Source: Actinopolymorpha alba DSM 45243 (GTDB taxonomy: Bacteria > Actinomycetota > Actinomycetes > Propionibacteriales > Actinopolymorphaceae). From it: a stretch of DNA of 64,000 nt. The stretch spans positions 1 to 64,000 of the forward strand of contig NZ_KB892745.1 of assembly GCF_000373925.1 (NCBI RefSeq). Reading direction: 5' to 3'. The position numbers were made by a program, and so were the translations under genes. Positions 52,065 to 64,000 of the stretch are shown one piece after another; positions within the stretch are counted from its first letter, which is position 1; the number at the start of each line of letters is the position of its first letter. Below the pieces are notes generated by a model. That model made no database searches and was not told the DNA's origin. It saw only the letters and a program-made list of their open reading frames with translations.

Positions 52065-52742
52065 TCAGAACAACCGCATCGACGGGTCGTCGAGGCCGCG
52101 GAGCGCGTCGTAGTCGACCGCAACGCAGTCGATACCGCGATCTCCGGCGAGCACCCGGGCCTGCGGTTTGATCTCCTGCGCGGCGAAGACCCCGCGGACC
52201 GGTGCGAGGAGCGGGTCGCGGTTGAGCAGCTCGAGGTACCTCGTGAGCTGCTCGACTCCGTCGATCTCCCCGCGCCGCTTCACCTCGACCGCGACGGCGG
52301 CGCCGCCCGCGTCCCGGCAGAGCAGGTCGACCGGCCCGATCGCGGTGGGGTACTCCCGGCGGACCAGACTCCAGCCCTCTCCGAGCGTGTGCGGGTGTTC
52401 GGCGAGCAACTCCTGCAGGTGGGCTTCGACGCCGTCCTTCTGCAGCCCAGGGTCGACGCCCAGATCGTGGGTGGAGTCGTGGAGGACCTCGTTGATGGTG
52501 ATGATCAGCTGGCCGCCGTCCTTGCCGGTGACGGTCCACCGCAGTGGCTGGTCGCCGTCGGCCGGCTGCTCGGTGAGCTTGCACGGCGGGCTCATCCAGT
52601 TCAGCGGCTTGTAGGCGCGGTCGTCGTTGTGGATCGAGACCGAACCATCGGCCTTGACGAGGATGAGTCGGGTGGCTTGCGGCAGATGGGCGGTCAGGCG
52701 GCCGACGTAGTCGACCTGGCAGGCAGCGATGACGAGGCGCAC
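52065..52742 (-). CDS. nucS: mismatch-specific endonuclease NucS/EndoMS
   Basis: 225 residues from a GTG. It cuts both strands at mismatches and is the actinobacterial replacement for MutS-MutL repair. N-terminal dimer/DNA-binding half: [61 protein letters not shown]-terminal nuclease of the RecB type: [20 protein letters not shown], with catalytic [20 protein letters not shown] (D...E-x-K). Its C-terminus ([10 protein letters not shown]) ends in the short motif of the family that contacts the beta clamp. It converges with araC. In many actinobacteria it lies near the atp/murA block, as here. Confidence 0.95.
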
Positions 52743-52911
52743 GACGGCCCAGACTAACGCTTGCCCTCCTCTTGCGGTGTTTGAGGTTTGAAGAGTCGTC
52801 TGACCTGGTCAAATGGAGAATGCGACAACTGGTCTGTTGGGTCCACGGCCGAGATTCCCGCCCAAACTCCGATCGCCTCAGACTGCTCTGAACCATATGG
52901 AGGGGGAATCC

Positions 52912-55200
52912 ATGCGTGGTTCTCGGAAGGTGTTGCTTGCCTTGGTGGCGGGTGCCCTCGCCGTTGTCGGGATGCCGGGGGCGGCCGCCGCTCCCGGGAC
53001 GCCCCAGCCGGCGTCGATGGGAGCAGCGCCCCGGGCGCCGGCCGGGAGCCATGGCCATGAAGAAGCCTCGTCCCAGACGACCGTCACGATGGCCACTCTG
53101 ATCACCGGCGACCAGGTCCGTCTGACGACCCAGCCGAACGGCGCCCGAACCGCCGTACCGGTGGCACCTGCCGGCCGGAAGGCTGCGCCCGTCAGCATCC
53201 GGTTCGCCGGCGACCGGGTCGAGGCGATCCCCGCGGATGCCTGGCCACTGCTGCGCACCGGCCGGCTCGATCCGCGGTTGTTCGACGTCGCCGGTCTGGT
53301 CGCGGCGGGGTACGACAGCATGAAGGTGCACGAGATCCGGCTCCTCCTTCGACGTACGCGGGGAACGTCGCTGGCCGGCGTTCCGAAGGGAGTACGCGTC
53401 GGGCGGTCGATCGCCGGGACGCCCGAGGTGCCGGTCACGGTAGGTCTCAAGGACGTACCCGCGTTCTGGCGGTGGCTCGTCGGGAAGCGGGCCAAGACGG
53501 GGGCGAAGCCGGGACCGGGCGCCGGTGTGCTGGCGTCTGGTGTCGAGCGCGTCTCGCTCGATCTCCCGGCGAAGGGCGGCACCCACCACGCGCCCACGAC
53601 CGAGGCGCCAGCGAAGGCGAAGGCGCCAGCGAAGCCGAAGGCGCCAGCGAAGCCGAAGGCGAAAAAGACGCCCTCGAACGGCACGTACCGCCTGACCTTC
53701 CGGCTCATCGACCGGAACGGCCGGCTCCTCACCAACCTCGACGACGCGTTCCTCACCCAGCCGGTCGTCCTCAACCGCGACACCGAGGACGTCATCGACC
53801 TCAACCCGGTCAGCGGCGGGATCGGAGCGGACGTACCCCGCGGTCACTACTCCTTCGGCGAGATCATCGCGACGACGTACGCCTTCAAACCCACCAGCTT
53901 CTCCCTGCTGGCAAGGCCGGACTTCGACGTGACCGGCAACCTCACCGTGACGCTGGACGCCCGGAACGCCCGCCAGGTGAAGATCAACTCCGATCACTCG
54001 GATGCGCAGCGGCTCGCGACGACGTTCGGCACCGTCGAGATGTTCGCGGGACGGCCGTGGACGACGTTGATCGCGCTGCCGGGGCCGCAGCGGTTCCCGG
54101 TCTTCGCACTGCCGACCTCGGAAGTCACGAACCGTCCGTACAACTTCGCCATGCTGCAGGTCCTGAGCGGCAGCGCGGGTACGTACGAGCTGCTCGTCGG
54201 CCGGGATCGCCGGATTCCGTCGAACCTGACCTACCGGGTGCGAGACGCCGACCTGTCGCAGGTGGACTCGAGGTTCTACACGGCCGGGACGGGCCTGGAC
54301 ATCAACGGCGTGTGGTTCCGGGAGGCCGAGCTACCCGGCGACGTGCAGGTCGGCCTCGGGTGGCACTACAACATCGCCCTCCCGAGCCGGCGCGTGCACC
54401 TCGCCACGACCAGCTTCGCCGGACACAAGCTGCCCTGGGCCGCCAGTCTCGACGTCCGCCGGGGCCTGGAGGAGTTGCTGTACTCCGAACTCCGCGTGCC
54501 GCGCCTCTTCCCGGCCGGCCAGCGGACGGTACGTCCGTGGAGCGCTGCCGGCTACCGCCCCGAAGGCGGCGGACTCCGGCACACGGACGGTCACATGAAG
54601 CTGTTCTTCGAGCCGTTCTCTCCCTCGGTACCCGATGCCCGGGTCATCGTCTGGGACGACGCCCGGATCGACGGCCAGAGCGTGCTCCGTCGGGAAGGCA
54701 AGGTCGTCGCCGAGTCCGATGATCCGTTCGCGCTCGACGCCGGCATGCAGCCAGCTGACCTGCTGAACTACGACCTCGACCTGCTCGGACGGCGGGACGT
54801 TTCCTGGTCGAAGTACGCCACCAGCGTGCACGGCTACTGGGAGTTCACCTGCTCCCGCCACGTCAGTGGCCCGCACGACATGAGACTGCTGAACGTCCAT
54901 GCCACGGGCGCGTTCGACTTGTACGGCCGGGCGCCGGCTGGCAAGGAGTTCCGCCTGAACCTCCCGATCGAGATGATCGAGGGATCCGGCACCCCGATCT
55001 CGGCGGAGCTTGCGGTGTCGTACGACGACGGCAAGACCTGGCGCGACATCCCGACCGTCCGCGACACCTCGATCCTCTGGCACGGGATGGTCACGCACCC
55101 GAACCTTCCGGGCGGCTACGTCTCGGTCCGGATCAAGGTCAGGACGGACAACGGCCACCTGGTCAGCATGACCTCGATCCGGGCCTACGGCCTGGCCTAG
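52912..55200 (+). CDS. secreted subtilase-like protein lacking the protease domain
   Basis: 762 residues from the ATG at 52912 (GGAGGGGG upstream). Signal peptide 1-27. Residues 55-217 match the propeptide region of the S8 protease at 62715: MATLITGDQVRLTTQPNGAR, AWPLLRTGRLDPRLFDVAGL, FWRWLVGKRA and SGVERVSLD. Where the Asp/His/Ser catalytic domain should follow, there is a linker rich in Ala, Pro, Lys (218-255; EAPAKAKAPAKPKAPAKPKA). The rest resembles the C-terminal beta modules of large actinobacterial S8 proteases (FRLIDRNGRLLTNLDDAFLT, GHYSFGEIIATTYAF, NLTVTLDARNARQVKI). With no nuclephile, His or Asp motif, it is presumably inactive as a protease and may act as a propeptide-like inhibitor or a binding protein. 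This is inference. Confidence 0.78.
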   Translation: MRGSRKVLLALVAGALAVVGMPGAAAAPGTPQPASMGAAPRAPAGSHGHEEASSQTTVTMATLITGDQVRLTTQPNGARTAVPVAPAGRKAAPVSIRFAGDRVEAIPADAWPLLRTGRLDPRLFDVAGLVAAGYDSMKVHEIRLLLRRTRGTSLAGVPKGVRVGRSIAGTPEVPVTVGLKDVPAFWRWLVGKRAKTGAKPGPGAGVLASGVERVSLDLPAKGGTHHAPTTEAPAKAKAPAKPKAPAKPKAKKTPSNGTYRLTFRLIDRNGRLLTNLDDAFLTQPVVLNRDTEDVIDLNPVSGGIGADVPRGHYSFGEIIATTYAFKPTSFSLLARPDFDVTGNLTVTLDARNARQVKINSDHSDAQRLATTFGTVEMFAGRPWTTLIALPGPQRFPVFALPTSEVTNRPYNFAMLQVLSGSAGTYELLVGRDRRIPSNLTYRVRDADLSQVDSRFYTAGTGLDINGVWFREAELPGDVQVGLGWHYNIALPSRRVHLATTSFAGHKLPWAASLDVRRGLEELLYSELRVPRLFPAGQRTVRPWSAAGYRPEGGGLRHTDGHMKLFFEPFSPSVPDARVIVWDDARIDGQSVLRREGKVVAESDDPFALDAGMQPADLLNYDLDLLGRRDVSWSKYATSVHGYWEFTCSRHVSGPHDMRLLNVHATGAFDLYGRAPAGKEFRLNLPIEMIEGSGTPISAELAVSYDDGKTWRDIPTVRDTSILWHGMVTHPNLPGGYVSVRIKVRTDNGHLVSMTSIRAYGLA

Positions 55201-55232: not shown

Positions 55233-55261
55233 GCGGCCGCGCCCGTTAGGAGCGCGGCCGC
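55233..55261. terminator. bidirectional terminator, 10-bp stem
   Basis: GCGGCCGCGC (55233-55242) and GCGCGGCCGC (55252-55261) around a nine-base loop. It lies after the plus-strand secreted-protein gene and overlaps the 3' end of the convergent aldolase gene. Confidence 0.75.
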
Positions 55262-56223
55262 TTCGCCTGTCCGGCGCTGCGGAAGTCCCGCATGCGGTCC
55301 ACCAGCAGCGCCCGCATCGCCTCGCGCCCCGCGCGTTCGTACCCCGCCGGATCGACGTTCAGCCCGTCGGTGGCCAGTGTCCTGCGGACCGCCGCGGTGA
55401 ACGCCAGGTGGGAGTCCATGCCCTGGTTGATCTTGCGGACACCCATGCCGATCGAGCGCACCTTCTCAGCCATCGGCACGCCCCACGACTCCGGCAGCGT
55501 CCCGCCGTACGCGTTGACCTCGGCGCGCAACTCCGCGGGCAGCGTGGACGATCCGTGCATGACGAGGTGGGTGCCGCTGGTCAGGGCGTGGATCCGCTCA
55601 GTGAGGTCGAGCCGAAGCACCTCACCGTCGGGTTCGCGGTCGAACTTGTACGCCCCGTGTGAGGTGCCGATCGCCACCGCGAGCGCGTCGACTCCGGTAC
55701 GCCGGACGAACTCCGCCGCCTGGTCGGGATCGGCGAGCACGATCTCCTTCGCCTCGCCGGTGCCGCCCTCGACCCCGCCGATGGTGCCGAGCTCACCCTC
55801 GACCGAGACGCCCCCCGCGTGCGCGTACTCCACCACCTCGGCGGTGACCGCGACGTTCTCTTCGAACGACGACGGGGTACGCCGGTCCGCCCGCAGGCTC
55901 CCGTCGATCATCACGCTGGTGAAGCCGGCCGCGATCGCCCGCGCACAGGTGGCGAAGTCGGGACCATGATCGAGGTGGAGGACCACCGGGACCTCGTCGT
56001 AGGTCTTGATCAGCCCGACCAGCGCACCCCAGAACCGCTCGTCGGAGGCGTGGGCGGACCCGCCGGCGATCGCCTGGACGATCACCGGTGACGCGGTGGC
56101 CGCCGCGGCGTCGAGGACGGCTTCGGCCTGGACGAGATCGGAGACGTTGAACGCACCCAGCGCGTAGTCACCGGCCGCCGCCTCGTCGAGCGCCTGCAGG
56201 AGAGTCACGAATGTCATGCGCAA
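55246..56223 (-). CDS. class II ketose-bisphosphate aldolase
   Basis: 325 residues (an ATG at 56217 is an alternative start). Zinc-dependent aldolase of the fructose/tagatose-bisphosphate family. N-terminal YALGAFNVSDLVQAEAVLDA; zinc His and catalytic Asp in VPVVLHLDHGPDFATCARAI; SVMIDGSLRADRRTPSSFEE; GVSVEGELGTIGGVEGGTGE; VDALAVAIGTSHGAYKF with a zinc His; LVMHGSSTLPAEL; and phosphate-binding VRKINQGMDSHLAF. It is the last gene of the sugar operon. An insertion of about ten residues after SLRADRR is unusual. Which ketose phosphate it cleaves is not readable from sequence. Confidence 0.9.
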   Translation of the reverse strand: MRMTFVTLLQALDEAAAGDYALGAFNVSDLVQAEAVLDAAAATASPVIVQAIAGGSAHASDERFWGALVGLIKTYDEVPVVLHLDHGPDFATCARAIAAGFTSVMIDGSLRADRRTPSSFEENVAVTAEVVEYAHAGGVSVEGELGTIGGVEGGTGEAKEIVLADPDQAAEFVRRTGVDALAVAIGTSHGAYKFDREPDGEVLRLDLTERIHALTSGTHLVMHGSSTLPAELRAEVNAYGGTLPESWGVPMAEKVRSIGMGVRKINQGMDSHLAFTAAVRRTLATDGLNVDPAGYERAGREAMRALLVDRMRDFRSAGQAKRPRS

Positions 56224-56264
56224 GCCCTTCTTGACGGTCCTCTTTTCCTTTGGGGCATTGGTGT

Positions 56265-56894
56265 TTACAGGGCAGAGGTGAAGCCGAGCTTGTCGTACTC
56301 CAGCACGTGCGGCGTCCCGATCGAGAGGGCCGCGTGCTGGACCTTCGCCGCGCTCTCGACCGCGATGCTGGTCTTGAACGCGTCGCGGAGGTTCGGGCCG
56401 ACGGTGAGCAGGCCGTGGTTACCCCAGATGACGGCGTTGCGCTCGCCCATGACGTCGCACATCGCCTCACCGAAGGAGGAGTTGTTGCTCTGCTGGAACG
56501 GCATGATGGGCACGGCGCCGCGGGTGTAGATCACCATGTTGACCAGGACGCCCTCGATCGGCCGCCCGAGCGCTCCGAACACGTTGGAGTAGACGGGTTC
56601 GCTGTGCACCACCGCGTTGACGTCGGGACGCCGTTGGTAGACGACCTGGTGCACCGTGACCTCAGAGGAGGGGCCGCGGTTACCTTCGAGGATGGTTCCG
56701 TCGTAGCCGACCACCACCAGGTCGTCCGGCGTCATCTTGTCGTACTCGAGATCGGTGGGTGTCACCACGATCGCGTCGTGCTCGGGCAACCGGACGCTGA
56801 TGTTGCCCTGGGTGTTGAAGTTGAGGCCGTACCGCATGGACGCCAGGCAGTACTCAATGATCTCCTCGCGGAGATCCTTACTCGCCAATGACAC
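56265..56894 (-). CDS. class II aldolase/adducin family protein
   Basis: 209 residues from the GTG at 56894, preceded by AAGGGA; the frame extends to 56996 over the kinase end. Family includes fuculose- and rhamnulose-phosphate aldolases and ribulose-5-phosphate 4-epimerase. Motifs: MRYGLNFNTQGNISVRLPEH (phosphate loop), VVTPTDLEYDKMTPDDLVVV, the catalytic Glu and zinc His of GPSSEVTVHQVVYQRRPDVN and AVVHSEPVYSNVF, and the third ligand VIWGNHGLLTVGPNLRDAF. It overlaps the kinase stop by 17 bp, so the two are coupled. The likely job is retro-aldol cleavage of the kinase product. Confidence 0.9.
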   Translation of the reverse strand: MSLASKDLREEIIEYCLASMRYGLNFNTQGNISVRLPEHDAIVVTPTDLEYDKMTPDDLVVVGYDGTILEGNRGPSSEVTVHQVVYQRRPDVNAVVHSEPVYSNVFGALGRPIEGVLVNMVIYTRGAVPIMPFQQSNNSSFGEAMCDVMGERNAVIWGNHGLLTVGPNLRDAFKTSIAVESAAKVQHAALSIGTPHVLEYDKLGFTSAL

Positions 56895-58347
56895 TGGTGG
56901 TCCCTTCTGACATTGCGTGGGAGATGTCCCGCAGGAGCGGATAGAGCTGGTGGTGCCGGTCGCGTTGGCCGGCGTACCAGCTCTGGGTGGTGGCATCGGG
57001 AACGAGTGGATCGCCGGTGCGCAGTGCCGCGCCGGCCTCGGCGATCGGACCGAAGTAGCCGGTCGCCGCGCCGGCGACGAAGGCCGCGCCGCGGGCGGTG
57101 GCGTGCCCGTCCACGAGTGTCAACGCGTGGTTGGCGGCACTCGCACGGACGGCCACGGCGGCGGGGGAGGCGCCGCCGCCACCGGCACGGATGTCGTTGA
57201 TGGGCACGCCCGACTTCGCCAGCAGGTCGTGGGTGCGGGCGACCTCGTAGCCGGACGCCTCGACCAGGGCCCGCACCATCTCGTCCCGCGTGGTTTCCAG
57301 CGTCAGGCCGAGGAAGGCGCCGCGCGACAGGGGATCGTTGTCGACCGTGCCGCTGCCGGCGAAGTGGGGGAGGACGAGCAGCTGGGAAGGGCGGTCAGAA
57401 AGCCGGCCGTACTCGCCGCCGAACCGGTCGACCAGCCAGTCGATCGTCGAGCCGCCCGAGGGAATCCCGGCCAGCAGGAGGTACCGGTCGGTGTCGTCGG
57501 CCGGGTAGCACGCGAAGCCTTCAGAGACGGCCTGTCCGGGCCACCCCTCGGTCACCGTGGTGAGGCACTCGCTGGTGCCGAGCGACCAGGCCGCACACGA
57601 CGGCTCGCTCACGCCCATGCCCCACATCGCGCAGGCCTGGTCGTGGGCACCAGCGACCACGTCGACGGGTGCGGTGAACCCGAGTCCGCGGGCAGTGGCC
57701 TCGGGCATCCGACCCAGCACCGTGCCGACGGGTACCGCCGCGGGGAGCCGGTCAAGCGGAATGCCGGCGTGCTCGAGGATGAGCGCCGACCACTCACGAG
57801 CATGTACGTCGAACGCCATCGTGCGGGCCGCGAGGGTGTAGTCGATGGCGGGCCCGACACCGAGGCACAGGTTGACGAATCCCGACAGGCTGGTGAACGT
57901 CGTCGCGGCGTCCCAGACCCGCGGCACTCGACGCCACCACGCGATCTTGCCGACACTGAACATCGGATGCGGCGGCTGTCCGGTGAGTTCGGCCAGCCGG
58001 CTCGCGCCGACGGCACTCACCAGAGCTTCCGTCTCCTCGACGGCGCGCAGATCGACGCTGACCGGCGCGTTGTCGAGGGCTTCGCCGTCAGCGTCCACGG
58101 GCACGATCGCCTCGCCCTGGGCGGTGACGCACACCGCGGTGACCGGATCCGCCGCCAACCTGGTGTTGACATCGAGCAGGCAGCCGCGGACCGCCTCCCA
58201 GACCAGGGTGGCGTCGACCTCGACATGGCCCGGCGCCCCGCGGGTGAGGGGATACCTGCGGGTGGCCGAGGCGAGTTCGGTCGCGGATCTGTCGTACGCC
58301 GCGATCCGGCAACCGCTGGTGCCAAGATCGATCCCCACAACGCTCAT
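56878..58347 (-). CDS. FGGY-family carbohydrate kinase
   Basis: 489 residues from the ATG at 58347. Phosphorylates a sugar or polyol with ATP. N-terminal ATPase phosphate-1 motif MSVVGIDLGTSGCRIAAYDR; PVSVDLRAVEETEALVSAVG; GFTAPVDVVAGAHDQACAMW (FGGY signature region with the catalytic Asp); PSCAAWSLGTSECLTTVTEG; and the C-terminal INDIRAGGGGASPAAVAVRA. Members use xylulose, ribulose, fuculose, rhamnulose, glycerol or erythritol; specificity cannot be told. It lies between the transporter genes and two aldolases, so its product is probably the substrate of one of them. Confidence 0.92.
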   Translation of the reverse strand: MSVVGIDLGTSGCRIAAYDRSATELASATRRYPLTRGAPGHVEVDATLVWEAVRGCLLDVNTRLAADPVTAVCVTAQGEAIVPVDADGEALDNAPVSVDLRAVEETEALVSAVGASRLAELTGQPPHPMFSVGKIAWWRRVPRVWDAATTFTSLSGFVNLCLGVGPAIDYTLAARTMAFDVHAREWSALILEHAGIPLDRLPAAVPVGTVLGRMPEATARGLGFTAPVDVVAGAHDQACAMWGMGVSEPSCAAWSLGTSECLTTVTEGWPGQAVSEGFACYPADDTDRYLLLAGIPSGGSTIDWLVDRFGGEYGRLSDRPSQLLVLPHFAGSGTVDNDPLSRGAFLGLTLETTRDEMVRALVEASGYEVARTHDLLAKSGVPINDIRAGGGGASPAAVAVRASAANHALTLVDGHATARGAAFVAGAATGYFGPIAEAGAALRTGDPLVPDATTQSWYAGQRDRHHQLYPLLRDISHAMSEGTTSVIGE

Positions 58348-58425
58348 GCGCGTCCTCGCTTCGCTCCGGGCGCGCATGAGGCACTTATTGCGCTGCGTTG
58401 GATGATTCGCTCGCTCATCGCGCGC

Positions 58426-59334
58426 TCATCCCTTCACCGATCCCTCGATCAGGCCGGCGACGAACCACCGTTGGACGATGAGATAGAGCAGCACCAGCGG
58501 CGCGGCCACCAGCACGAGGATCGCGAACAACGCGCCCGGATTTCCGACGTAGACACCGCTGTACTGCTGGGGGATCAGCGGCAGGGTCTTCATCGTGTCC
58601 TTCGTCATCACAGTGAGCGCGAGGAAGAACTCGTTCCAGCTGGTGATGAACTGCCAGACCGCGACGAAGATCATCGAGGGTCGCAACATCGGAAGGACGA
58701 CCTGGGTGAGCAGCTTCCGGGCACTGACCCCATCGATGACCGCGGCCTCGAACACCTCCTTCGGCAGGCTGTGCATGAAACCCACGAGCACGACGACCGC
58801 GAACGGAATGCCCAGGGCGGCGTACGGCCCGATCAGGCCCCAGTAGTTGTTGATCCCGCCGAACATCTGCAGCAGTGCGCCGAGCGGCACCACCAGCGCA
58901 CCGAGCGGCACCATCAGCGTGATGAGGATGGCGGCGTACATCGCCTGGCTGTACCGCAGCTTCAGGACCGTCGTTCCGTACGCGAAGAACGCGCCGGCGG
59001 CCGCGACGATCGCTGTGGACACGGCGGAAACGAGGACGGAGTTGAGCAGGTAACGCGGGATCGGGTTGTCCTTGAAGACCACGAGGAAGTTGTCGAACGT
59101 GACGTGGGTGCTCAGGATCGAAGAATCGAAGGCGTTCTCGGGCGGCCGGAGCGAGACGCTGACGAGGTAGACGACCGGCAGCAGCCAGATCACTGCCACC
59201 GCGGACAGCAGCGTGACGGCGACCCGGGAACGCCACCGCGGGCGGACGGAGCCGACGTTGGCGGCGGCCATCGAGGCGCCGGGATCGGTGCCACCGTCGG
59301 TTGACAGATGCGAAGGAGCGGTCTGCGTGGCCAT
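58426..59334 (-). CDS. sugar ABC transporter permease, MalG type
   Basis: 302 residues with six membrane spans after a polar N-terminal 30 residues (AVTLLSAVAVIWLLPVVYLV is span 1). The cytoplasmic EAA loop that docks the ATPase is FEAAVIDGVSARKLLTQVVL followed by PMLRPSM. It ends with the usual RWFVAGLIEGSVKG. It starts 3 bp after the MalF-type permease gene. No ATP-binding subunit is encoded here, so a shared MsiK-like ATPase elsewhere is expected. Confidence 0.93.
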   Translation of the reverse strand: MATQTAPSHLSTDGGTDPGASMAAANVGSVRPRWRSRVAVTLLSAVAVIWLLPVVYLVSVSLRPPENAFDSSILSTHVTFDNFLVVFKDNPIPRYLLNSVLVSAVSTAIVAAAGAFFAYGTTVLKLRYSQAMYAAILITLMVPLGALVVPLGALLQMFGGINNYWGLIGPYAALGIPFAVVVLVGFMHSLPKEVFEAAVIDGVSARKLLTQVVLPMLRPSMIFVAVWQFITSWNEFFLALTVMTKDTMKTLPLIPQQYSGVYVGNPGALFAILVLVAAPLVLLYLIVQRWFVAGLIEGSVKG

Positions 59335-59337
59335 CTG

Positions 59338-60297
59338 TCACTGTCCCCCGACACTCATCCGGGTTCCGAGCAGCTTCATCTGGGTGGCGGTCAGCACGAA
59401 CGCGATCAGCAGGGTCGTGACCGACAGCGCCGACGCGTAGCCGTTTTGGTCGAGCAGGAAGCTGGTACGGAAGATCTGCGTACCAAAGATCTCGCTGGCG
59501 TGGTTGGGCCCGCCGGACGTCATCAGATAGACCAGCGGGAATGTCTGGAGCGTGCCGATGATGCCGAGCATCACCAGGCTCTTGGTCACCGGCGAAATCA
59601 TCGGGATGACGATGTGGCGGGCCAACTGCCAACCGCGCGCACCGTCGATCTCGGCGGCCTCCATCGTCTCGCGCGGGATGCGGTTGATCCCCACGATGTA
59701 GAGCAGCATCGAGAAGCCGGTGAACTCCCAGATGTTCACGACGATGATCGCGTAGATCGCGGTGCGGGGGTCCGCGAGCAGGTTGGTGCTGAGGTGGATA
59801 CCCACGCTGTCAAGGAGACCTTGCAGGGGGCCGTAGCCCGGCGCGTACATCTGCGACCACACGATCGCGATCACCGAGGCGCTGGTGACCAGCGGGACGA
59901 GGAAGGCGGTCCGCAGGAAGCTCTTGCTCCGCTTGGCGTGCTTCTCGATGAAGTACGCGAGCGTGCCGCCGACCACCGTCTGGATACCGATGGTGAGGAT
60001 TGCCCAGGCCAGCATGTTGCGGCCGGCGGTCCAGAAGACGGGGTCGGTGACGACCGCCTGGAAGTTGGCCAGCGGGCCAGTACCCGCGCTCGCGTCGTCC
60101 CGCACCGAGAGGCTCGCCGTCAGCACCGAGACGATGGGATAGCCGATGAAGACGACGAAGAACAGGATCGCTGGTGCTAGGAACAGATAGCCGGCCCGCC
60201 GGCTGCCGAGCAGCGTGGCGAAGTCGGCTTCTCCGTTTCGCCGCGGCCGCCCTCGCCGGGAGAGGGCGGCCGGACGAGTACTCAGCGCCTGGGCCAT
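59338..60297 (-). CDS. sugar ABC transporter permease, MalF type
   Basis: 319 residues with six membrane spans (YLFLAPAILFFVVFIGYPIV is span 1). EAA loop: MEAAEIDGARGWQLARHIVI followed by PMISPVTKSLVM. Its ATG overlaps the binding-protein stop by one base (TGATG), showing tight coupling. Pairs with the MalG-type permease to form the channel. Confidence 0.93.
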   Translation of the reverse strand: MAQALSTRPAALSRRGRPRRNGEADFATLLGSRRAGYLFLAPAILFFVVFIGYPIVSVLTASLSVRDDASAGTGPLANFQAVVTDPVFWTAGRNMLAWAILTIGIQTVVGGTLAYFIEKHAKRSKSFLRTAFLVPLVTSASVIAIVWSQMYAPGYGPLQGLLDSVGIHLSTNLLADPRTAIYAIIVVNIWEFTGFSMLLYIVGINRIPRETMEAAEIDGARGWQLARHIVIPMISPVTKSLVMLGIIGTLQTFPLVYLMTSGGPNHASEIFGTQIFRTSFLLDQNGYASALSVTTLLIAFVLTATQMKLLGTRMSVGGQ

Positions 60298-61661
60298 CAG
60301 CCGCCCAGCGCCTTCGCCTGAGCTGCTTGCACCTTCGCAAGAGCGGCCTTCGGCTGTTGCTGCCCGGCGGCGACGGCGGCGAGCGCGTTGTCGAGCGCGG
60401 TCTGGACCGACGGTGAGGCGAAGCGTTGGTTCACCGCGTCCGGAAGCTGCTTGACCAAACGGTCATACAACTCGGTGACGTGCGGGCTCACCGAGCCCGG
60501 AAGCTGTACGCCGTTGAACGCCGGCAGGTCGTTGACGTCGACCAGGGCAGCCTTGCCGGCGTCACCGTTCACCAGGCTGGCAAGGAACTTCCACGCGTGG
60601 GCCTTCTTCTCGCCGTTCTTGGTGAGGCCGTAGCCGACGTCGATACCACCGACGACCGCGCCCGGCTTGCCGCCGGCGTGGATGGCCGGGAAGTCGAAGT
60701 AGTCGAATCCCTTGAGGTCCTGGGTGAGCGGCGGGATCGGCGGGTCGAGCTGGGCCTGCTGCAGCCACCAGGAGCCGAGCGTCATCATGCCGACCTTGCC
60801 GGCACCGAACAGCTGGGCGCCGGTGGGGTAGGCCTGTGCACCGAGCGCACCGTCCTGGAAGACGCCATCGGTGAAGAGCCGGCGCCAGGCGGTCATCGCC
60901 TCGACGAGCTCGGGCGCGGTCCACTGGACCTTCCCGGCCTGGGCGTCGTCGGTGATCCCGCGGCGCAACTGGTTGGCCAGGATGAGGAAGACGTTCTCGT
61001 TCTGCCACGCACCGGCGGCGCCCTGGTACATCGGCAGGTAGCTGTTGGCGCGGAGCTTCTTCGACACCGCGACCAGCTCGTCGAAGGTGGTCGGAACGCT
61101 GAGCTTCAGCTTGGCGAAGGCCTCGCGGTTGTACCAGACACACAGGACCTGCGACTCGTGGGCGACCATGTAGTAGTTCTTGTCGCCCTCGGGGTTGCCG
61201 AGGCGCATCTGCTGCAGGTTGACGGGGGCGAGCTGCTTCTCCCAGTCAGAGCCGAAGCTCTTGGCCGCGAGGTCCTGGAGCGGAGCGAGCTGGGAGCGGT
61301 ACTGCTGCGTGAGAGACCCCGGCTGGAGCCCGATGACGTCGGGCAGCGTGCCGCTGCGGGCCGCCGTCTTCAGCGCCGTGAGGTACTCCGGGTCGTAGTT
61401 GTAGTAGCTGTAGTTGATGGTGACACCTGGATTGGCCTTCTCATACGCCTTGATGGCCTTGTCCATCGTGCTCTTCACGAACCACGACCAGACGGTGACC
61501 GTCTGGCTGTCTCCCTTGTCCCCGCTGCTCGTCGTGGTGCTTGACGGCTTGTTGCTCGTCCCCACGCATCCGGCGAGCAGGGAGCCCACGGCGGCGACCG
61601 CCGCGCCGGACAGGACGGTTCGCCGAGAGATCCCGTTGACCCCGTTACCGTGCTCCGACAT
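60297..61661 (-). CDS. extracellular sugar-binding lipoprotein
   Basis: 454 residues, family 1 solute-binding protein. Twin-arginine signal ISRRTVLSGAAVAAVGSLLA with lipobox LAGC (Cys32), followed by a Ser/Thr linker; so it is probably exported by Tat and lipid-anchored. Mature part: TVWSWFVKSTMDKAIKAYEK, NPGVTINYSYYNYDPEYLTA, LPDVIGLQPGSLTQQYRSQL and VGMMTLGSWWLQQAQLD, as in CUT1 carbohydrate-binding proteins. First gene of the operon, divergent from the DeoR regulator. The ligand is unknown. Confidence 0.93.
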   Translation of the reverse strand: MSEHGNGVNGISRRTVLSGAAVAAVGSLLAGCVGTSNKPSSTTTSSGDKGDSQTVTVWSWFVKSTMDKAIKAYEKANPGVTINYSYYNYDPEYLTALKTAARSGTLPDVIGLQPGSLTQQYRSQLAPLQDLAAKSFGSDWEKQLAPVNLQQMRLGNPEGDKNYYMVAHESQVLCVWYNREAFAKLKLSVPTTFDELVAVSKKLRANSYLPMYQGAAGAWQNENVFLILANQLRRGITDDAQAGKVQWTAPELVEAMTAWRRLFTDGVFQDGALGAQAYPTGAQLFGAGKVGMMTLGSWWLQQAQLDPPIPPLTQDLKGFDYFDFPAIHAGGKPGAVVGGIDVGYGLTKNGEKKAHAWKFLASLVNGDAGKAALVDVNDLPAFNGVQLPGSVSPHVTELYDRLVKQLPDAVNQRFASPSVQTALDNALAAVAAGQQQPKAALAKVQAAQAKALGG

Positions 61662-61680
61662 GTAGTCAGCTTTCTTAGAG

Positions 61681-61712
61681 GTTTCGTTTGCTTACGAAAC
61701 ACTTTCGAAACG
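61681..61712. promoter_or_regulatory. DeoR-type operator
   Basis: GTTTCGTTTGCTTACGAAAC at 61681-61700 is an imperfect dyad (GTTTCG-N8-CGAAAC), and TTTCGAAAC at 61703-61711 repeats the half site next to it. Position in the divergent gap between the binding-protein and deoR genes fits a repressor site. Confidence 0.7.
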
Positions 61713-61784
61713 ATGGCGGTCAGCTTTGCATTACGGCTGGCTTCGGCGCAAGGGGGTGGGCTAGGTTTACGCGCGGAGGTGGGG

Positions 61785-62591
61785 ATGGCGATCCCGTCGA
61801 TGGATGAGCGGGCGCGGACGATCGAGCGACTCCTGCTGGAGCGCGGACGGGTCAGCGTCGATGAGCTGGCGCGGTTGTTCGGGACGTCACCCGTCACCGT
61901 CCGGCAGGACCTCACGACTCTCGAGGCTGACGGCAAGCTCCGGCGCGTCCGCGGTGGTGCCGTCCGGGTGAGTAACGGCGCTGACGGTGCGGCGTTCGAC
62001 TTCCGCCTCCGCCAGCAGCAGGACGAGAAGCGGTCGATCGCCGAGCGGGCGGCGGAGCTGGTGTCAGACGGCGACGCGCTCGTGCTCGACTGCAGTACGA
62101 CGACCTACCACCTGGCGCGCCGGCTGACGCACGCGCGGCGCAACCTCATCGTCGTCACGAACGGACTACGGATCGCGCAGGTCCTCTCCGAGAACCCCAC
62201 GATCACCGTGATCATGCCGGGTGGCACTGTCCACGCGACGGCGCAGGCGCTGGTCGGAGGGGTGCCCGAGACCCTGAGCGGGGCGGGCCGGTTGAGCAAG
62301 GGCTTCTTCGGGCCGTGGGCGGTGTCGGCCGAACTCGGCTACCTCGACGTCCACGCCGGAGAGGCCGACTTCAAGCGCTGGATGGTCGAGGCCTGCGACC
62401 AGTTGGTCGCGCTCTTCGACTCCTCGAAGTCGAGCCACTTCGCGTTCATACCGTTCGCCCAGCTGTCAGACGTCCACGTGAGCGTCACCGACCGGGGCAT
62501 CCCCGACCAGCTCACGAAGGCACTGCGTAAGGCCGGGCAGGAGATCCTGCTCGTCGACCCCGAGCAGCAGCCGGCGTCCGAAGACGCCTGA
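61785..62591 (+). CDS. DeoR family transcriptional regulator
   Basis: 268 residues from the ATG at 61785 (CGGAGGTGGGG upstream; an ATG at 61800 is also in frame). Residues 10-65: DERARTIERLLLERGRVSVD, ELARLFGTSPVTVRQDLTTL with LRRVRGGAV, a DeoR winged helix. Residues 85-250: sugar-phosphate-binding DeoRC domain, with DGDALVLDCSTTTYHLARRL and FGPWAVSAELGYLDVHAGEA. It probably represses the divergent uptake-kinase-aldolase operon until a sugar phosphate binds, through the site at 61681-61712. Confidence 0.92.
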   Translation: MAIPSMDERARTIERLLLERGRVSVDELARLFGTSPVTVRQDLTTLEADGKLRRVRGGAVRVSNGADGAAFDFRLRQQQDEKRSIAERAAELVSDGDALVLDCSTTTYHLARRLTHARRNLIVVTNGLRIAQVLSENPTITVIMPGGTVHATAQALVGGVPETLSGAGRLSKGFFGPWAVSAELGYLDVHAGEADFKRWMVEACDQLVALFDSSKSSHFAFIPFAQLSDVHVSVTDRGIPDQLTKALRKAGQEILLVDPEQQPASEDA

Positions 62592-62714: not shown

Positions 62715-64000
62715 ATGCGCGGTCTTCGGAGGACTCTGCTCGCCTTGACGGTGGGCGCGATGGCGGTAGCTGGAATCTGGAGTTCCGGGGCAACGGCCGC
62801 GACCTCGACGGCAGGCAAGCCCGCCGTACCCGATCGGGACGAGATCTCGACGGTCACGTTGATCAGCGGTGACCGGGTACGCCTGACCACTCGGGCCGGG
62901 GGCGTCAGAAGCGTCGTGCCGATTCCCGGTCCGGGCCGCAGCAAGGTCGTCTTCAGCATCCGCCAGCGCGGCCGCGACGTGGAGGTGGTGCCCTCGGACG
63001 CGGCACCGTTGCTCCTGACCGGGCGGCTCGACCGGCGGCTCTTCGAGGTTGCCCGCCTGGCCGCCGCGGGATACGACGACGCCAGGACGAAGCGGATTCC
63101 GCTCATCCTTCAGTACGCGCCCGGCCGGAGTGGGTTCGCCGCCGTTCCGCGTGGTACCACCATCGGGCGGCCGCTGCCCAGCGTGCGGTCAGCCGCGGTG
63201 TCAGAGCCCAAGGGCGAGGCGGTGAGCTTCTGGCGTTGGCTCGTCGGCCAGGCGGCGGCCGCGCCCGGGACCGGTCCGTCGATCCGGGGCGGCGCCCTGG
63301 CCGGCGACGTCGAGAAGGTCTGGCTGGACGGCCCGGTGCGGGCCACCCTTGACCGGAGTGTCCCGCAGACGGGCGCGCCGAAGGCATGGCAGCTCGGCTA
63401 CACCGGTAAGGGGGTGCAGGTGGCTGTCCTCGACAGCGGTGTCGACCGTGACCACCCCGACCTCAAGGGAGCGGTGGTGGCTGAGCGGGACTTCATTGGA
63501 AGTCCGTCCGGTGCCGACGACCGATTCGGCCACGGTACGCATGTGGCGTCCACCATCACCGGGAGCGGGGCCGCCTCGAACGGTCGCTACAAGGGAATGG
63601 CTCCTGACGCCACGCTGCTCAACGGCAAGGTCCTCAACGACGAGGGCAGTGGCACCGAGTCGTCCGTCATCGCCGGCATGGAATGGGCCGCCGACCAGGG
63701 CGCCCGGATCGCCAACATGAGCATCGGCTCGTCCTTCGCGACCGACGGTACTGACCCCGTGTCGCTCGCGCTGAATCGCATCACCGCGCAGAAGGGCACG
63801 CTGTTCGTCGTCGCCGCCGGCAACAACGGGCCCTACGAGGAGAGCATCACCTCTCCCGGCTCGGCCGACGCCGCACTCACTGTCGGGGCGGTGGGCTCGA
63901 CGGGTACGACCGCGGAGTTCTCGAGCCGGGGCCCGAGAGTGACCGACTTCGCCCTCAAGCCGGACCTGGCGGCGCCCGGTGTGGGCATCGTGGCCGCTCG
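62715..64000 (+). CDS. S8 family serine protease (subtilase), 3' end beyond window
   Basis: At least 428 residues; the frame is open at the window edge. Signal peptide 1-28 (MRGLRRTLLALTVGAMAVAG). Propeptide-like region about 45-210 (VTLISGDRVRLTTRAGGVRS, LLLTGRLDRRLFEVARLAAA, FWRWLVGQAAA). Catalytic domain from about 230: Asp240 in VQVAVLDSGVDRDHPDL, His273 in RFGHGTHVASTITGSG, and the oxyanion Asn in TLFVVAAGNNGPYEESITSP. The catalytic Ser lies past the window end. Large actinobacterial subtilases of this type are 1,000 residues or more, with C-terminal beta modules. Its N-terminal third is paralogous to the secreted protein at 52912. Confidence 0.92.
   Translation, partial: MRGLRRTLLALTVGAMAVAGIWSSGATAATSTAGKPAVPDRDEISTVTLISGDRVRLTTRAGGVRSVVPIPGPGRSKVVFSIRQRGRDVEVVPSDAAPLLLTGRLDRRLFEVARLAAAGYDDARTKRIPLILQYAPGRSGFAAVPRGTTIGRPLPSVRSAAVSEPKGEAVSFWRWLVGQAAAAPGTGPSIRGGALAGDVEKVWLDGPVRATLDRSVPQTGAPKAWQLGYTGKGVQVAVLDSGVDRDHPDLKGAVVAERDFIGSPSGADDRFGHGTHVASTITGSGAASNGRYKGMAPDATLLNGKVLNDEGSGTESSVIAGMEWAADQGARIANMSIGSSFATDGTDPVSLALNRITAQKGTLFVVAAGNNGPYEESITSPGSADAALTVGAVGSTGTTAEFSSRGPRVTDFALKPDLAAPGVGIVAA

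Follow-up and report, generated by a model that had tools for sequence, protein, structure and literature searches.

A subtilase gene of Actinopolymorpha alba without its catalytic region, with both flanks retained in one frame

The gene at 52912-55200 of the window (the whole stretch of 64,000 nucleotides that was analysed, positions 1 to 64,000 of contig NZ_KB892745.1 of Actinopolymorpha alba DSM 45243) encodes a protein, P0001, that is an S8 subtilase lacking its catalytic region, both ends being retained in one frame. P0001 descends from an S8 precursor: its N- and C-terminal parts align with S8 proteins, and its syntenic slot is common with related species. Two separate losses occurred within Actinopolymorpha, and the deletion is not one event. 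The features of the window referred to in the text are as follows.

52065..52742, minus strand: nucS, the divergent neighbour and marker of the ancestral slot (Pfam NucS_N and NucS_C; synteny)
52899..52906, plus strand: Shine-Dalgarno-like GGAGGGGG, read from the sequence, preceding the ATG at 52912
52912..55200, plus strand: P0001, the catalytic-less subtilase gene, 762 aa plus stop (coding 52912-55197)
52912..52992, plus strand: likely Sec signal peptide, residues 1-27 (by eye)
53083..53562, plus strand: N-domain, the putative propeptide region of the parent S8 subfamily, residues 58-217, stopping at VERVSLD; N-profile matched through its last position
53563..53676, plus strand: linker, residues 218-255, Ala-Pro-Lys rich (alignment and counts)
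53677..55197, plus strand: C-terminal modules (C-modules) common with the parent S8 subfamily, residues 256-762 (C-profile 1-499 of 500)
62715..63998, plus strand: full-length paralogous S8 protease, in-window part (Asp, His and Ser motifs located)

Residues 1-27 of P0001 were read by eye as a basic start, a hydrophobic core and an AAA-type end, and the protein is probably secreted. A single S-x-D-D-G-x-T-W motif lies near the end of its C-modules. The paralogous protease (the 62715 protease) comprises 1131 aa in full (contig 62715-66110) and runs past the window end; it starts 7.5 kb downstream of the P0001 gene and is the nearest protease in the window genome. The two are separated by about 7 kb of genes (window 55246-62591), with a class II aldolase, a solute-binding protein, a DeoR-type regulator and ORFs of 795 and 290 aa, both without a Pfam match at E 0.001. 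The six related loci that were read have a compact nucS slot, unlike the window genome.

Residues 2-233 of P0001 were aligned with the in-window 62715 protease by two-sequence BLASTP (98/238 identical, 41%, E 6e-38), and residues 257-761 were aligned with the C-terminal part of the same protease (50% identity, E 1e-157). The catalytic domain was scored by profile, which replaced a regular-expression check of the triad that misses variants. On P0001 the N-profile was matched over positions 4-188 of 188 and the C-profile over 1-499 of 500; neither the S8 catalytic profile (built from 43 relatives) nor Peptidase_S8 (PF00082) gave a match, and the 62715 protease matched both. The 413 residues at 206-618 of the protease correspond to the 38-residue linker of P0001 and comprise the cleavage region, the catalytic domain (DSG, HGTH and GTSMA motifs) and then the stretch behind the catalytic domain, for which weak Ig/Fn3-like matches were obtained (Cep192_D3 at L053 506-567, E 0.0056; fn3_5 in 17/46 members). 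The sequence-only reading was right in likening the N-terminus to the propeptide region of the 62715 protease, the likeness reaching far beyond the signal peptide, and in placing an Ala-Pro-Lys linker where the catalytic domain had been. The C-terminal part, which it had called typical S8 modules, does not match non-S8 families only and is homologous to the C-modules of this S8 subfamily, but 'typical' went too far, as no named domains were found in it with Pfam or NCBIfam.

At E up to 1, Pfam gave no match in P0001, and the best NCBIfam match (E 0.25) lay on the low-complexity linker; 46 aligned relatives gave 17 families, none of which convincingly names the N- or the C-part. A PDB sequence search with the catalytic-less profile gave no match at E up to 10. 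With the full-length profile, the best 60 of 209 matches were S8 enzymes, mostly over the catalytic part in the rows read, and with the N-region of the 62715 protease one S8 chain was obtained, matched at the mature-enzyme start alone (E 0.041).

The N- and C-parts of P0001 are homologous over their length to an actinobacterial subfamily of S8 subtilases (VTLITGDRV N-domain, long C-modules), of which the catalytic domain and the stretch behind it are absent in P0001. Ten N-domain genes were found in the window genome; the catalytic profile also matches nine of these, and P0001 is the tenth. The N-domain also heads S8 enzymes whose C-termini differ widely, and it therefore goes with the enzyme. 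In the proteases the N-domain ends in V-W-L-D, with Leu at the seventh residue after this motif in 36/40 members, and then SVPQIGAP; the last was aligned with the start of mature subtilisin, and the place of P1 is presumed from that alignment. In the tail after V-x-L-D a P1-like Leu stood at that distance in 0/6 genus catalytic-less proteins (free alignments), a linker being found instead, and the strand in place of VWLD reads VSLD in P0001 and VSLR in the A. pittospori catalytic-less protein. No Pfam match to I9 (PF05922) was obtained in P0001, and I9 is absent from the 17 families found in the 46 aligned members. HMM-HMM comparison of the N-domain with 24 I9 domains from 38 relatives was not significant (E 0.27, probability 0.2%), and its weak best match, which falls on the stretch before V-x-L-D, was not counted as evidence. 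Since the N-domain is not recognisably I9 by Pfam or by HMM-HMM comparison, its assignment as a putative propeptide region draws on where it sits and what accompanies it, not on its fold.

One catalytic-less N-domain gene was found in each of the six Actinopolymorpha genomes (6 of the 30 N-domain ORFs found there), which upholds the claim of a real, conserved gene; the other five proteins are 41-50% identical to P0001, and their frames are open. The other 24 of these 30 ORFs, one of them frame-broken (G005), include at least two in every genus genome. In two genomes from other genera of the family, all relatives found were full-length. Among 147 genomes of the order (E 1e-30) matches were confined to the same eight genomes of the family, and among 296 genomes of the class (E 1e-28) eight matched, with the fused match only in the window's own genome; few candidates were scored per genome in either sample, which hence is no census. 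A second pass over the 296 class genomes with another query gave a further catalytic-less case (G203), present in 1/12 genomes of its genus. Genome contigs were also searched by alignment with N-domain patterns, the best 80 of 498 confirmed stretches being kept; with a single protein as query this search gave no match. These 80 loci contained 103 ORFs with an N part, a C part or both: 94 with N, catalytic and C parts, five with N and C without a catalytic part (from A. pittospori, A. rutila, Streptomyces xanthophaeus (L084), Micromonospora sp. KC213 (L099) and Rugosimonospora (L080)) and four that look like fragments or broken frames. A clean C-modules-only protein was found in none of the loci read, and the N-domain search patterns would miss such proteins.

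In L084, a draft contig, the cleavage region and the first catalytic-domain residues are still present, and a recent deletion or a faulty assembly may explain this case. The Rugosimonospora africana protein (L080:17469-19355, 629 aa, reaching the locus end) has the N-domain, no catalytic domain and a weak C-module similarity, for which it was excluded from the count of origins; its middle differs and is PA-domain-like by eye. The G203 protein (L197:4091-6286) has a shortened N-domain and ends, by eye, in LPNTG followed by a hydrophobic segment and basic residues; it looks anchored to the cell wall in sortase-type fashion. An S8 relative of Micromonospora sp. C31 (L097:7935-11027), with VLSTGVD at the catalytic Asp motif, no GTSMA and the catalytic profile matched in pieces, is likely a pseudoprotease of the same subfamily. 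Tandem full-length paralogues of the subfamily were seen in Saccharothrix and Rhizohabitans loci (L089, L093, L096, L098 and L115). A frame break lies inside the catalytic domain in G005 (L202:2154-6222) and one in-frame TGA in G236 (L189), and both protease genes look broken or misassembled. The N-domain ORFs of G162, G229 and G296 (708-720 aa) were rejected as catalytic-less genes, the catalytic domain being present with another C-terminus, and L198 and L199 were rejected as broken frames or contig ends.

A full-length protease lies between nucS and a conserved block in A. pittospori (G002) and in another genus of the family (G007). In G001, A. rutila (G003), G004 and G005 the catalytic-less gene was found in that exact nucS slot, so the protease was lost in place in these four species. 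No orthologue of the 62715 protease was found in these four of the six genus genomes, because the catalytic-less gene occupies its slot. The order in the window genome is nucS, the catalytic-less gene, about 7 kb of other genes, the full-length protease and the conserved block (contig 66225 onward), and in A. pittospori the catalytic-less gene lies away from the nucS slot.

The genus tree and the AU test were computed from 19 of 30 aligned rows. P0001 and the A. pittospori catalytic-less protein formed a clade (100/99 on C, 100/100 on N+C), and the other four catalytic-less proteins grouped with the full-length A. pittospori protease (100/100). All six forced into one clade were rejected (AU p 0.002 for C, 0.004 for N+C); the test did not reject a clade of the four species with both full-length genus proteins (p 0.11, 0.28), which the best tree lacks. 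The proteins of G001 and G005 are closer to full-length genus proteins than to the other catalytic-less type, in N and in C, and the linkers of the two types are unlike. These observations stand against a history in which a single ancient deletion arose in a gene duplicate and was later sorted between species, the tree being blurred by gene conversion. We regard such a history as improbable, although in both clades the N-part ends at V-x-L-D (or R) and the protein restarts at the same C-module place, and although the N-only tree is poorly resolved, with starred branches that permit one origin. In a quick tree of the C-modules (42 chosen rows, nine of them catalytic-less) five changes were needed, and the starred branches, which by the program's own notes merit lesser trust, force five; by this quick tree the catalytic-less relatives have five origins, three of them elsewhere in the class.

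dN/dS was computed for the four-species clade, which is not P0001's own clade. By YN00 the N-domain stands at 0.10-0.14 and the C-modules at 0.07-0.12 (6/6 pairs each), and NG86 gave 0.32-0.46 and 0.38-0.60, respectively. For the linker (about 21 codons) NG86 gave 0.57-1.6 and YN00 1.2 in 1/6 pairs. As control, the same N-domain in a catalytic S8 paralogue of the same four species gave 0.07-0.11, and the part behind it 0.04-0.07 (4/6 pairs each). NG86 dS was by appearance too low for the GC content, and YN00 with the like-for-like N-domain control was relied on. A propeptide region without a catalytic domain was found in a maintained gene, maintenance having been measured in the four-species clade.

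Near-invariant residues were counted in the N and C parts only, since rows forced into the fixed alignment gave an artefact (full-length Actinopolymorpha proteases at 2-3/105 catalytic residues, a result rejected as the catalytic profile finds the domain whole), and the tail was for this reason read from free alignments. In the N-domain 31/32 were kept in the four species, 28/32 in A. pittospori and 23/32 in P0001 (nine changed). P0001 has drifted further than the other genus proteins, which tempers claims on its N-domain. In the C-modules 34-45/49 were kept in eight distinct catalytic-less proteins (nine rows, with A. rutila twice and S. xanthophaeus left out) versus 36-44/49 in seven full-length proteins; the four-species clade kept 34-35/49. 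All five origins show an almost complete match to the C-profile. The N-profile match reached 185-188/188 in three of them, 161 in the Micromonospora sp. KC213 protein and 137 in that of G203, for which an N count of 26/32 is unsafe since the match stops at 137/188.

Stepwise decay, by which these genes would be proteases on the way to loss and their intact frames transient, is in our view very improbable. The nine changed N residues of P0001 would fit such a course, as would the S. xanthophaeus and G203 cases, which look isolated (G203 in a single one of the 12 genomes of its genus); the frames are, however, open in 6/6 genus genomes at 41-50% identity to P0001, and in the four-species clade both halves have a dN/dS near 0.1 while the linker drifts. 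For that clade, decay is largely refuted by the constraint that followed loss of the catalytic domain.

The main rival explanation is a propeptide acting in trans, in which the N-domain would dock on the catalytic domains of sibling S8 proteases and inhibit them or help them fold, with the C-modules serving to co-localise. The N-domain constraint in the four species, nearly that of the intact protease, argues for it, together with the 31/32 near-invariant residues kept, the presence of at least two other N-domain genes per genus genome (in the window the protease starts 7.5 kb downstream) and the precedent of stand-alone propeptide-like inhibitors (SUB1-ProM and four others, in an excerpt of PMC6993865). 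We nevertheless hold it to be unlikely. The active-site tail is lost (P1-like Leu in 36/40 proteases versus 0/6 genus catalytic-less proteins), VSLD or VSLR replaces VWLD in P0001 and A. pittospori, respectively, and P0001 is changed at 9/32 near-invariant N residues; G203 also is without the second part of the N-domain, and the C-part of about 500 residues is retained in all five origins. In 5/6 genomes, moreover, no full-length relative was found within the ~7-9 kb read on each side, so that the proposal in the sequence-only reading of an inhibitor or chaperone of the neighbouring protease is left with a constrained N-domain in its favour, but with the neighbour mostly missing and the tail gone.

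Over action in trans we tentatively favour, at a little under even confidence, a non-catalytic protein that binds through its C-modules and in which the N-domain serves as folded partner. Binding would be what selection keeps. The C-modules would most likely hold the target of the parent protease (a polymer, a protein or a cell-surface partner) without cutting it, and P0001 could act as an adhesive, scaffolding or shielding competitor of sibling proteases; the N-domain may have been retained as a folded module, either packing against the C-modules or required for the whole unit to fold and be secreted. The occurrence of the gene in 6/6 genus genomes, its several origins, the in-place loss and the constrained C-modules are consistent with this reading, which also accounts for near-complete C-modules in five origins with an N-profile cut short in two, and for the wall-anchor-like end of the G203 protein. 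On the other side, the N-domain is nearly as constrained as in the active protease, where a mere cap might need less. In the four-species clade it keeps 31/32 near-invariant residues versus 34-35/49 in the C-modules, which contact with a protease in trans would fit, and the NG86 values for the C-modules (0.38-0.60) show no stronger constraint than those for the N-domain (0.32-0.46). The C-modules alone should suffice if they were the whole function, yet no clean C-only protein was seen among the loci read. The binding-unit reading alone does not explain the strong N-domain constraint, and it names no target. A decoy that kept only binding functions, as had also been suggested, comes close to it, with the putative binding placed on the C-modules.

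A further possibility, which we consider rather doubtful, is a repeated route by which propeptide and C-modules become a stable two-part regulator of sibling proteases or of a shared target. If true, this would be a new architectural class, neither classical pseudoprotease nor small stand-alone propeptide, that may replace a protease at its locus.

Among known systems, SUB1-ProM of Plasmodium is described in an excerpt of PMC6993865 as a propeptide-like inhibitor that has no catalytic domain and whose gene lies beside subtilase genes; P0001 is likewise a propeptide-region protein without a catalytic domain near a subtilase gene. SUB1-ProM has a tail that reaches the active site, and it inhibits (same excerpt), whereas the tail of P0001 is gone and what P0001 shows is homology to a propeptide region; unlike SUB1-ProM as there described, P0001 carries a 500-residue C-part. 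The capping residues and C-terminal segment of SUB1-ProM are, according to a section title of PMC6993865, not required for parasite growth. In an excerpt of PMC10580911 the C-terminal tail is placed in the active-site cleft and bears on potency, and is not essential in cucumisin and PfSUB; for the inhibitor reading these data cut both ways. Stand-alone inhibitors of MEROPS family I9, such as P. ostreatus inhibitor 1 and the yeast proteinase B inhibitor, are small gene products (excerpts of PMC6993865 and PMC10580911), and P0001 shares their enzyme-less propeptide fold only if its N-domain has that fold. Unlike them, P0001 has no I9 Pfam match and its subfamily no significant I9 profile match. 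CspC and CspA of C. difficile are subtilase relatives that work without catalysis, as P0001 would. P0001 is no pseudoprotease in the sense of fold kept and triad broken, the fold being absent. CspC and CspA keep the catalytic fold with a broken triad, and in P0001 the whole fold is gone.

To our knowledge, catalysis-free subtilase relatives are of two forms, broken-triad pseudoproteases and small stand-alone propeptides. No report of subtilases reduced to propeptide and C-modules was found in the open-access literature, most subscription papers lying outside the search; excision of the whole enzyme with both flanks kept, repeatedly and once with replacement of the enzyme at its locus, was likewise not found in the literature searched. 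The usual view of propeptides is that they help their own subtilase to fold, inhibit it and can then be dispensed with. In the four-species clade a propeptide region is kept under propeptide-like constraint after deletion of its enzyme. The N- and C-parts would be two protein families worth describing, since Pfam gave no convincing model for either, and the finding makes testable both the role of the large unnamed C-modules and propeptide duties beyond the own enzyme. A loss of the same kind arose independently in related bacteria, so the retained ends probably serve a function in their own right.
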